Translations under genes and position numbers: made by a program
Source of the DNA: Deltaproteobacteria bacterium GWA2_54_12
GTDB lineage: Bacteria; Desulfobacterota; GWC2-55-46
Assembly (NCBI GenBank): GCA_001795535.1
Contig: MGPK01000069.1
Location: 21,250 to 72,673, forward strand
Direction of reading: 5' to 3'
Length of the DNA: 51,424 nt
Notes under the pieces: model-generated
Database searches by the model: none
Told to the model about the DNA's origin: nothing
What the model saw: only the letters and a program-made list of their open reading frames with translations
Shown here: piece by piece, positions 839 through 3,513 of the stretch
How the letters are laid out: the number at the start of each line of letters is the position of its first letter
Numbering within the stretch: the stretch's first letter is position 1

Positions 839-1936
839 CTAAAAGTGATATATAGCGTTGAGGCCTATTGTATCCTGCGTATCGGAAAGAGCCCCGTCCT
901 TGTCGAATACATCATTATTAGAATCGTCGTGGCGGTACTCCGCCCTAATGAGAAGGTTGTCGTTCACAGCGTACTCGGGGGTCAAGGTCAGCTCCCAGAG
1001 GTCCTGGGCCGTCCCTGTCCTCGCGCCGTCATCATCCGAGAAAACCTCGGCTCTGGCGTTTATCGCGAACTTTTCGCTTACCGCGTACCTCGCGTAACCG
1101 GCCAGCCCTGTCCAGGTAGCATCTCCAATCCCGGGCACGCTCTCCTCGGTGCCGTAGACATAATCAGCCTTGAGCGTGAGATTGCCCATTTGCTTCGACA
1201 CATTCGCGTTGAACAGGTGTCTCAGGTTGTTGTTTGAATCAGCCTGCTCCGCGCCGACCATGTACTTAAGACTGACCGCAGTTCCCTCGGAAGGCGTTAT
1301 TGCGGCCATGATGTGCGCTGACTTGGAGGTATTGTTGTCCTTCACATTGTCCCAGCCGTTCACGACCGCGCCGGAAAGCGTCAGCTTGTCGTTGACCGCG
1401 TAAGTCGCCCTCAGGCCAATATGCGTAAAAGGTATGCTGAAGTAGAAGAGGAACGAGCGGGAGTAGTTCAGGTTCCAGTCCTCGTAGCCTTCTATTACCT
1501 CGAGGCCGTGGTCAGTGACGAACTTTCCAAAATCCAGCCTGAGGCCGCTGCCAACCGGGGCCATGTAGGAAATATACGCCTGGCGTATGTCAAAGTCATC
1601 TGAGCTTGCCGCGCCAGTTGAGTGTATGGCCTTCGGCACAGTGTATCCAAAGTTGAGGTCAAGCCTGAAACCTGCTTCCCCGGCCTCGACCGCGTCCTTG
1701 TGGAACACGAGCTGGGCGAGCTCCAGTGAGATGCTGTCGTGGGTGTCGTTAAAGGGCCTCAGGTTAATCGCCCTCGTATGAGGCTCGTTGAAGTTGTAGT
1801 TGTACCCGGCGGACAGGAGCCCGTTGATCTGGACATCCTTCAAGGCGTCCGCCACTGTAAGGGCGTCTGCTGCCAGCGCCTGGCCTGAAAAAAGCAGAAG
1901 GCCGCAGGCGGCTGATGCTATTGCCAATCTCTTCAT
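839..1936 (-). CDS. Putative beta-barrel porin-2 (BBP2/OmpL-like) outer-membrane protein
   Basis: Outer-membrane porin of 365 residues. It has a clear signal peptide (MKRLAIASAACGLLLFSGQALA) and ends in aromatic NAIYHF, the usual C-terminal signal for barrel insertion. Alternating hydrophobic strands run through the whole mature protein. The N-terminal pattern (NGLLSAGYNYNFNEP, then ...HDSISLELAQLVFHK, then GFRLDLNFG) resembles the BBP2/OmpL-like porin family. ATG at 1936 follows a GGAGG site. It is the first gene of the unit that continues into amt, so it probably lets ammonium or another small nitrogen source cross the outer membrane; that role is inferred from context. Expression is probably under sigma-54 and leader-antitermination control (see 1974-2068 and 2091-2108). 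Confidence 0.82.
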   Translation of the reverse strand: MKRLAIASAACGLLLFSGQALAADALTVADALKDVQINGLLSAGYNYNFNEPHTRAINLRPFNDTHDSISLELAQLVFHKDAVEAGEAGFRLDLNFGYTVPKAIHSTGAASSDDFDIRQAYISYMAPVGSGLRLDFGKFVTDHGLEVIEGYEDWNLNYSRSFLFYFSIPFTHIGLRATYAVNDKLTLSGAVVNGWDNVKDNNTSKSAHIMAAITPSEGTAVSLKYMVGAEQADSNNNLRHLFNANVSKQMGNLTLKADYVYGTEESVPGIGDATWTGLAGYARYAVSEKFAINARAEVFSDDDGARTGTAQDLWELTLTPEYAVNDNLLIRAEYRHDDSNNDVFDKDGALSDTQDTIGLNAIYHF

Positions 1937-1973
1937 TGTGTTACCTCCGTCTTTTTTTAAGCAGCCGCCCCTT

Positions 1974-2068
1974 TAAAAAATAAAAAGGCGCCTTGCTCTT
2001 CTTTTGGAAGAATAAGGCGCCGTTGCCCTTTTTTCGATTTAATTTATTCCGGTTACGACAGTGTAACC
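1974..2068 (-). promoter_or_regulatory. ANTAR-type dual-hairpin antitermination leader with intrinsic terminator
   Basis: Read on the minus strand, the porin leader contains hairpin P1 at 2068-2051 (stem GGUUAC/GUAACC, loop ACUGUC) and hairpin P2 at 2029-2014 (stem AGGGC/GCCUU with one G-U pair, loop AACGGC). Both loops are six bases long with A at position 1 and G at position 4, the signature recognised by ANTAR-domain antiterminators. P1 and P2 are separated by about 21 nt. P2 shares its 3' side with the 5' arm of a strong terminator hairpin (2021-1987, arms beginning and ending GGCGCC), followed by UUUUUAUUUUUU. P2 and the terminator cannot form together, which is the known ANTAR logic. 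Regulation by the regulator at 2908-3483 is inferred. Confidence 0.8.
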
Positions 2069-2090
2069 CTGTTGTCTTGAACTTTTGTTA

Positions 2091-2108
2091 TTGCAACACT
2101 GGTGCCAA
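2091..2108 (-). promoter_or_regulatory. Sigma-54 (RpoN) promoter of the porin-amt unit
   Basis: The minus strand reads TTGGCACCAGTGTTGCAA, matching the -24/-12 consensus TGGCAC-N5-TTGCA exactly, with the invariant GG and GC at the required spacing. The predicted start is near 2081, giving a leader of about 145 nt that contains the ANTAR hairpins. A sigma-54 promoter implies an NtrC-type activator, fitting nitrogen control of ammonium uptake. No activator gene is in the window. Confidence 0.82.
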
Positions 2109-2192
2109 CTTCGATTCGATGATTTTCCCTATATATCCCGCACCGGAACTCCCCGGCCTGCCTCTTTTTGCCTCAGTTTCTAGCAAGAGTGC

Positions 2193-2900
2193 CTATTTTT
2201 CAACCATGCGGCTGAACCTTGCACCAAGCGCGCTGCCGAGCCTGTTGAGCGCCTCTATCCGTTCCGGCGTCTCCTCGATTATGGCCTTTGGGTCGACCAC
2301 GCCCTTGAGGGAGGCCAACTCATCCTCGTTTACTGTTATCCATTCCCTTATCATCTGCTCCGTGACTTCGAGATGGAACTGTATGCCGTAAGCGGCAGGG
2401 CCGACCTTTATGACCTGGTTTGGAAACAAGTCGCTTGACGCGAGCATGAGCGCGCCCTGCGGGACATCAAAAGTATCCCCATGCCAGTGAAAAGCCCTGA
2501 ACCTGTCGGGAAACCCTAGAAAGAGCCAGTCGTTGTCAGCGTCTTCCGTAAGGCTAACATCATGCCAGCCTATCTCCTTGGCATTGCCCTTGTAGACCCT
2601 GCTGCCCGCGGCCTTGGCGATGAGCTGAGAGCCCAGGCATATGCCGAGCAAGGGGACTCTTTTTTTGAGGGCATCCTCGATGAGCTTCAATTCCGGCTTT
2701 ATGAAAGGGTACTTGTCGTCCTCGTAGACGCCCATCGGCCCGCCGAGCACGACAAGGCCGTCGTACCCGTCTATGCGCGGCGGGACTGACGCGCCCCTGA
2801 ACAGGTCTATGTACTCGACCACGGAGTCCCTTTCAATGGGCCTCTTCAGAATGCCGAGCCCTTCGTGCGGAACATGCCTTAAGACCAGCGCTCTCCCCAT
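2193..2900 (-). CDS. Class I glutamine amidotransferase (GMP-synthase-like GATase domain)
   Basis: A stand-alone class I (triad-type) glutamine amidotransferase of 235 residues. The nucleophile elbow is GICLGSQL with Cys88, and the His/Glu pair is in QFHLEVT (His176, Glu178), so the triad is complete. The oxyanion region is LVVLGGPMG. There is no synthetase domain, so the ammonia acceptor is unknown; relatives are annotated as GMP-synthase-like or gamma-glutamyl-transfer enzymes. It lies 7 bp downstream of the ANTAR response regulator and is almost certainly co-transcribed with it from the sigma-54 promoter at 3496-3513. That placement suggests a part in the nitrogen-limitation response, perhaps as a glutaminase. 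The ATG at 2900 is preceded by a purine-rich GGTAGGGGG site. Confidence 0.85.
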   Translation of the reverse strand: MGRALVLRHVPHEGLGILKRPIERDSVVEYIDLFRGASVPPRIDGYDGLVVLGGPMGVYEDDKYPFIKPELKLIEDALKKRVPLLGICLGSQLIAKAAGSRVYKGNAKEIGWHDVSLTEDADNDWLFLGFPDRFRAFHWHGDTFDVPQGALMLASSDLFPNQVIKVGPAAYGIQFHLEVTEQMIREWITVNEDELASLKGVVDPKAIIEETPERIEALNRLGSALGARFSRMVEK

Positions 2901-2907
2901 ATTCCCC

Positions 2908-3483
2908 CTACCTGCCTTTATCGAATGCCATGATGATGACCTCTGCCACCTCGGCCATCGACTTTCTCTTGTCCATGCTTATCTTTCTTATCCTCGCGAA
3001 CGACTCTGTCTCGCTCATGCCTTCGCGCTCCATCAGAAGGCCCTTGGCCTTTTCAATGAGCTTTCTAGCCTGAAGCGTATTTTTCAGGTCCTCGTTCTCT
3101 TTGCGCAGAGCCGTAAATTCGCTGAACCTAGATATGGCAAGCTCCACAGCAGGCGCTATCTCTTCGCCCCTGACGGGCTTCATCAGATAGGCCATTACCC
3201 CTGCGTCGGCCGCCCTCTTTATGGTCTCCTCGTCGTCGCAGCCGGTAAGGAGCACGATGGGCGTCGGGCAGCACCTGCTTATCTCTTCAGCCGCCTCTAT
3301 GCCGTCCTTGCCTGGCATCTTGACATCCATTATGAGGAGGTCAGGAGAATTGAGCCTGCAGATACCGAGGGCTTCAGCCCCGCTTGCCCCCTCTGCCACG
3401 AGGATAAATCCGGCATCCTCGATGAATCCCTTCAAGACCAGTCTTTCCGTGGGGTTATCGTCTACAATCGCTATTCTTCTCAT
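2908..3483 (-). CDS. ANTAR-domain response regulator (RNA-binding antiterminator, NasT/AmiR type)
   Basis: Cytoplasmic regulator of 191 residues counted from MRRIAIVDDN. The receiver domain (1-120) has the acidic pocket DDN, phospho-acceptor Asp53 in IMDVKMPG, Thr80 in LLTG and Lys102 in MKPV. A coiled-coil linker (121-140) leads to a C-terminal ANTAR domain (about 133-188: LIEKAKGLLMEREGMSETESFARIRK...). ANTAR proteins bind paired hexaloop hairpins and block terminators; such a pair lies in the porin leader at 1974-2068. A TTG at 3501 would add six residues but falls inside the sigma-54 promoter, so ATG 3483 is preferred. That start has no visible ribosome site and lies about 3 nt after the predicted transcription start. 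No cognate histidine kinase is adjacent. Confidence 0.9.
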   Translation of the reverse strand: MRRIAIVDDNPTERLVLKGFIEDAGFILVAEGASGAEALGICRLNSPDLLIMDVKMPGKDGIEAAEEISRCCPTPIVLLTGCDDEETIKRAADAGVMAYLMKPVRGEEIAPAVELAISRFSEFTALRKENEDLKNTLQARKLIEKAKGLLMEREGMSETESFARIRKISMDKRKSMAEVAEVIIMAFDKGR

Positions 3484-3495
3484 GCTTTGTATAGA

Positions 3496-3513
3496 TAGCA
3501 ATTAGGGTGCCAA
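3496..3513 (-). promoter_or_regulatory. Sigma-54 promoter of the ANTAR regulator-GATase operon
   Basis: The minus strand reads TTGGCACCCTAATTGCTA, an exact TGGCAC-N5-TTGC match with correct GG/GC spacing. Counting 12 nt from the -12 C puts the start near 3486, only about 3 nt before ATG 3483, so the message would be close to leaderless. Two such promoters less than 1.5 kb apart, both ahead of nitrogen-linked genes, support each other. Confidence 0.78.

Follow-up and report, generated by a model that had tools for sequence, protein, structure and literature searches.

Analysis of a 51,424 bp stretch of the genome of Deltaproteobacteria bacterium GWA2_54_12 (part of contig C69, MGPK01000069.1, positions 21,250 to 72,673; referred to here as the window) revealed a nitrogen assimilation cluster that is very probably subject to two serial controls, a sigma-54 dependent start of transcription and an intrinsic terminator gated by an ANTAR domain protein. 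In the order of transcription, the window encodes a receiver-ANTAR response regulator, a class-I glutamine amidotransferase, a BBP2 (OmpL-like) porin and an ammonium transporter (amt); these and all other window features described below are on the minus strand. The leader of the porin transcript contains two hairpins, P1 and P2, and a terminator that overlaps P2. The reading best supported by the sequence comparisons is that the neighbouring ANTAR regulator gates the sigma-54 porin-amt transcript, since the leader motif and the regulator were conserved together, and in linkage, over the bacterial class to which this genome belongs.

Sigma-54 promoters

The porin transcript was preceded by an exact match to the sigma-54 (-24/-12) consensus TGGCACN5TTGCW between 2092 bp and 2107 bp (TGGCACCAGTGTTGCA), and the same site was found in related genomes. 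The original prediction, made from the sequence alone, had placed an exact promoter here (2091 bp–2108 bp), and the match at 2107 bp–2092 bp bears this out. A second exact match was located between 3497 bp and 3512 bp (TGGCACCCTAATTGCT), upstream of the ANTAR regulator gene. A pattern scan tolerating one mismatch found no sigma-54 sites in the window beyond these two, and genome-wide there were 11 exact matches compared to one for the reversed control pattern. TGGCAC-N5-TTGCW was present at a fixed distance before a gene, and an enhancer-binding protein (NtrC-like) was encoded in the cluster. A consensus scan of the region for sigma-70-like sites gave no excess over chance expectation; the same scan did not list the terminator.

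Transcript starts were read off the -12 element and are not mapped positions. On this basis the porin transcript is predicted to start at approximately 2081 bp, upstream of P1, and the regulator transcript at approximately 3486 bp, 3 nucleotides before the ATG. When the window was compared with 22 homologous loci, with the regulator start assigned, the predicted start lay 2–4 nucleotides before the regulator ATG in 20 of the 23, and the sigma-54 transcript of the regulator is therefore probably leaderless. The regulator's sigma-54 site was also present in 18 of 19 further loci, and in most genera the inner sigma-54 site precedes the leader.

The porin leader

P1 (2051 bp–2068 bp; GGTTAC[ACTGTC]GTAACC) and P2 (2014 bp–2029 bp; AGGGC[AACGGC]GCCTT) both have six-base loops, shown in brackets, with A at the first and G at the fourth position (A1/G4), and the loop of P1 is closed by the pairs AC/GT as in EutV targets. 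The intrinsic terminator (1975 bp–2021 bp) comprises a stem (1987 bp–2021 bp) and a U-tract (1975 bp–1986 bp), and the 5′ arm of the stem shares 2014 bp–2021 bp with P2. Both the pair of A1/G4 hairpins (2068 bp–2051 bp and 2029 bp–2014 bp) and the overlap of the terminator 5′ arm with the second of them (2021 bp–2014 bp) had been predicted and were recovered here. Through this overlap the P1/P2 state and the terminator are mutually exclusive. A short leader lacking the terminator 3′ arm folded into exactly P1 and P2 (-13.6 kcal/mol), and when the 3′ arm was included the terminator outcompeted them. The terminator alone had a folding energy of -22.0 kcal/mol (z -5.97 relative to shuffles).

The stability of P1 and P2 alone was not unusual compared to shuffled sequences, and the evidence for them comes instead from the comparison between genomes, which is strong. 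An Rfam search of the region returned chance-level matches only and no ANTAR RNA family. Additionally, the sequence 3′ of the U-tract (window 1945 bp–1994 bp) was able to re-pair with the terminator 3′ arm (-9 to -16 kcal/mol); such a sequence was seen in all ten BBP2-type leaders and was not clear in the other leaders examined.

Conservation across the class

Twelve porin leaders were gathered through homology of the porins, without reference to the motif. P1 with A1/G4 was found in 10 of these, and P2 was AAGGC[AACGGC]GCCTT or a close variant in nearly all of them. With no constraint placed on the loops, the longest hairpin 5′ of P2 carried A1/G4 in 32/38 leaders, a set that was partly found with an A1/G4-trained model and so is not fully independent. 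Among 28 distinct leaders, four of the six P1 pairs varied on both sides, and the two helices together showed 22 compensatory two-sided changes compared to 5.4 in shuffles. The covariation score was 0.290 (0.131 in shuffles), a value reached by none of 500 shuffles; the signal was mostly in P1 because the sequence of P2 is also constrained by the terminator. The loop-closing pairs of P1, C-G and A-U, were invariant in the same leaders, which agrees with the requirement of EutV for AC/GU closing pairs (PMC3369931).

A covariance search for the dual hairpin had been suggested as a check. Of the 63 genomes of the class, 45 matched the leader model (E ≤ 0.01), the dual hairpin recurring with compensatory changes. 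Among 257 genomes sampled from the phylum, only 2 outside the class matched at E ≤ 0.001, and one of these (L198) looks doubtful. Weak matches or matches within coding sequence elsewhere in the genome, such as that at position 13416 of contig C51, were discounted.

The regulator ortholog and the leader occurred together in 38 genomes; 10 had the regulator only, 3 the leader only and 8 neither (Fisher p = 0.0018, with related genomes treated as independent). This class-wide co-conservation and linkage supports the proposal, already made in the original prediction, that the neighbouring regulator would act on the leader. In most loci of the family the order was sigma-54 site, regulator, amidotransferase, (mostly) a sigma-54 site with dual hairpin and terminator, outer-membrane protein, amt, glnK and amt, and its form varied at order and class level. 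A class-I glutamine amidotransferase constantly lay between the regulator and outer-membrane protein genes. BBP2 is not the constant part: in many genera the gene at this position encodes another protein, secreted or of the outer membrane. Two of these proteins were Gcw_chp-like, and for several there was no match in Pfam.

Two further leaders differed in form. In genome G002 (L178 / L073), a second sigma-54 and ANTAR leader preceded the gene for a different protein, secreted or of the outer membrane, of a type that replaces BBP2 elsewhere. The P1–P2 linker of L067 (genome G007) was 52 nucleotides long and contained a strong inverted repeat rich in GC (GCAGGGGCAG / CTGCCCCTGC) that may draw both hairpins together.

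The ANTAR regulator

The regulator gene (2908 bp–3483 bp, with an ATG start) is an orphan, as a kinase gene is not adjacent. Its product has full-length coverage by a receiver domain containing the phospho-acceptor Asp (Pfam Response_reg, 6.9e-25) and an ANTAR domain (8.7e-21), and its closest solved structures were Rv1626 (1s8n) and EutV (6wsh). Eight of 11 EutV RNA contacts (PMC8934654) were identical in the regulator: R142, K143, K147, K149, E160, R168, M172 and R175. An ANTAR regulator had been predicted next door to the leader under its own sigma-54 promoter; the domains and the exact site (3512 bp–3497 bp) were both found, and the two are not direct neighbours, as the amidotransferase gene (2193 bp–2900 bp) intervenes. 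This gene (Pfam GATase, 2.7e-22) keeps its position between the regulator and outer-membrane protein genes, and reading of its sequence showed the Cys motif (GICLGS) and the His/Glu motif (QFHLE) to be intact.

Extent of the cluster

Beyond amt, the contig encodes glnK, a second amt (amt2) and nirB, followed on the opposite strand by thiE and ntrC-like and ntrB-like genes. The NtrC-like gene scored 501 bits to TIGR01818, below the cut-off of 558.6. The porin-amt unit that had been proposed was confirmed as to both genes and proved to be part of a larger one, with gates before glnK-amt and nirB and the NtrBC-like pair beyond, in which BBP2 is not constant. In relatives, glnK leaders with complete P1 and P2 and no sigma-54 box were located inside the cluster. 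In L013, from the genus of the window, the P1 of the glnK leader was degenerate and the nirB leader consisted of P2 and the terminator only (12398 bp–12500 bp and 10345 bp–10580 bp, minus strand). A gate with P2 only may reflect a different working mode or decay.

Proposed mechanism

The order, overlap and conservation of the sequence elements and the residues of the regulator are observed, and this anatomy gives strong support to the first part of the scheme; the steps that follow are modelled on EutV, NasR and NtrC, and we infer from these precedents RNA binding, antitermination, phosphorylation, NtrC dependence and AND logic. Sigma-54 polymerase would be activated by an enhancer-binding protein, for which the NtrC-like protein of the cluster is the likeliest candidate, and would then start the regulator-amidotransferase transcript and, from the second site, the porin transcript. 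By default the porin leader would form the intrinsic terminator and transcription would stop before the porin start codon. A phosphorylated dimer of the receiver-ANTAR protein would bind the A1/G4 loops of P1 and P2; with P2 held, the 5′ arm of the terminator would be occupied and the terminator blocked, allowing read-through into porin-amt. Similar gates before glnK-amt and, in reduced form, perhaps nirB would repeat the check within the cluster.

Several results weigh against this proposal. Three of the 11 EutV contacts were changed in the regulator (Y164F, N173D and R177S). Searches for a HisKA_2 kinase gave none in the window genome (2.08 Mb, 80% complete) and none in six of seven relatives tested; ANTAR proteins as a group are not defined by such a partner kinase. 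Most relatives also encoded another receiver-ANTAR regulator, which was more distant. NtrC-like palindromes were sought upstream of both promoters and nothing convincing was found. Matches of the leader model are not independent evidence for the loop bases, as the model was trained on A1/G4 leaders, and kinship was ignored in the test of co-occurrence. The glnK leader of the window genome has its own P2 and terminator with an imperfect P1, and its nirB leader has P2 and terminator without a clear P1. The P1–P2 linker of the window was 21 nucleotides, whereas EutV fails at 14 nucleotides or with a 20-nucleotide extension (PMC8934654 and PMC3369931). This length is inside the 2–25 nucleotide range accepted for other ANTAR RNAs (PMC8164766); the linkers of some relatives exceeded it, at 26–36 nucleotides and, in the locus with the internal inverted repeat, 52 nucleotides. 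Finally, four close genomes of genus g6 (G017, G027, G008 and G025; loci L019, L020, L021 and L022) had no inner sigma-54 site but kept the leader. In G008 the regulator's sigma-54 site was retained though the inner site was absent, and in these loci the upstream promoter of the regulator presumably supplies the transcript by read-through from the upstream gene pair.

Alternative explanations

In one alternative, the promoter alone sets expression and the main role of the gate is to tune how far transcripts of the regulator-amidotransferase operon read through, with no true two-signal AND logic. We consider this unlikely. It is favoured by those members of genus g6 in which transcription of the porin probably begins at the promoter of the regulator, and by the fact that no second signal or kinase is known; what argues against it is that most genera have the inner sigma-54 site ahead of the leader, its predicted start lying upstream of P1.

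A further possibility, which we regard as quite doubtful, is that the orphan ANTAR regulator is signalled via the adjacent glutamine amidotransferase with no conventional kinase, in a module with a leaderless sigma-54 transcript and serial gates behind one promoter. If this were the case, the gates would open in series, first for the outer-membrane protein and amt, then for glnK-amt and then for nirB, giving a graded, ordered response and class-wide nitrogen scavenging.

The leader could also be an ANTAR target that is read by the second, more distant regulator which most relatives encode. This is very improbable, since across the class it is the neighbouring ortholog that shows genetic linkage to the leader, and a leader match was absent in several genomes with the distant paralog only (G009, G033, G040, G043, G045, G046 and G049). 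The neighbouring regulator was the sole ANTAR protein of the window's assembly, though this is 80% complete; a single ANTAR domain in the genome was dropped as proof of the acting protein, as relatives carry two and the assembly is incomplete.

Least probable of all is that the terminator serves simply to end the regulator-amidotransferase transcript, or is an attenuator of fixed efficiency, and that the A1/G4 hairpins are coincidental: its placement after the amidotransferase gene and the unexceptional stability of P1 and P2 alone fit such a role, but P1 shows compensatory changes with fixed A1/G4 loops, the terminator sits downstream of the inner sigma-54 start, and the dual motif recurs before glnK, where no gene end requires a terminator.

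Comparison with known systems

The proposed gating of the porin-amt transcript by the neighbouring regulator resembles, in its RNA elements, the EutV/EutW system of Enterococcus faecalis, which has a receiver-ANTAR regulator and dual hairpins with A1/G4 six-base loops. In the eut leaders, as here, P2 overlaps the terminator, several gated leaders are present per cluster and the closing pairs of P1 are the same. The eut system differs from the window locus in having no sigma-54 layer, short linkers (5–12 nucleotides) and ethanolamine genes as its targets, and in having an adjacent HisKA_2-type kinase, EutW.

The nearest known system in logic is the GnfM/GnfR cascade of Geobacter sulfurreducens (GnfK/GnfR and GnfM; Ueki and Lovley, 2010, as cited in PMC8164766 and PMC10746287), in which a sigma-54 NtrC-type activator reportedly feeds an antiterminating ANTAR regulator of nitrogen genes. 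Its targets are said to be nitrogen-fixation genes, unlike those of the window locus, and we know of no amidotransferase-outer-membrane protein-amt unit controlled by GnfK/GnfR. The kinase and regulator genes of this system are unlinked (GSU0941 and GSU2822; PMC7962754). In Klebsiella oxytoca, NasR/nasF with NtrBC likewise combines an Ntr (sigma-54) promoter with ANTAR antitermination at nitrogen assimilation genes (PMC5424462). NasR differs in lacking a receiver and in sensing nitrate directly through its NIT domain, and it acts on nitrate assimilation genes, among which there is no porin, amt or glnK.

Dual-hairpin ANTAR leaders were predicted before ammonium transporter, P-II and nitrogen genes by Ramesh et al. 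(2012), with 13 ANTAR RNA matches in six units of Desulfotomaculum acetoxidans; the accessible part of that paper (PMC3369931) describes neither a sigma-54 layer nor an outer-membrane protein as first gene. A listing published in 2025 includes ANTAR genes with predicted sigma-54 promoters (PMC12316311). The original prediction knew of no described case pairing a BBP2 porin with amt under both layers. This claim of novelty has to be narrowed, as the two-layer logic has precedents; no paper combining an ANTAR domain, a glutamine amidotransferase and an ammonium transporter was found in the literature searched. Both layers, and also their combination, were already known, and it is the setting that is unusual. 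The newer details are the predicted leaderless sigma-54 transcript of the regulator, the lack of a canonical partner kinase and the gates in series behind one promoter.

Sigma-54 initiation with ANTAR antitermination, so far described from a few model systems, is thus probably the conserved control of ammonium uptake in one uncultured class, and would span this uptake from the outer to the inner membrane. The natural variants of the leader (linkers of 7–52 nucleotides and P2-only gates) form a compact set for probing the requirements of ANTAR proteins.

Porin, amt and the intervening repeat

The porin gene (839 bp–1936 bp) matched the BBP2 family of Pfam at 2.5e-75. The 5′ part of amt was present between 3 bp and 563 bp (Pfam Ammonium_transp, 9.3e-44); the gene crosses the left edge of the window and is entire in the contig except for a run of 8 residues read as N. 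Between the two genes (652 bp–834 bp), a palindromic repeat of about 160–190 bp resembling a miniature inverted-repeat transposable element was found, which may weaken cotranscription of porin and amt in this genome. Approximately ten more substantial copies of this repeat were present genome-wide, with 80–91% identity.

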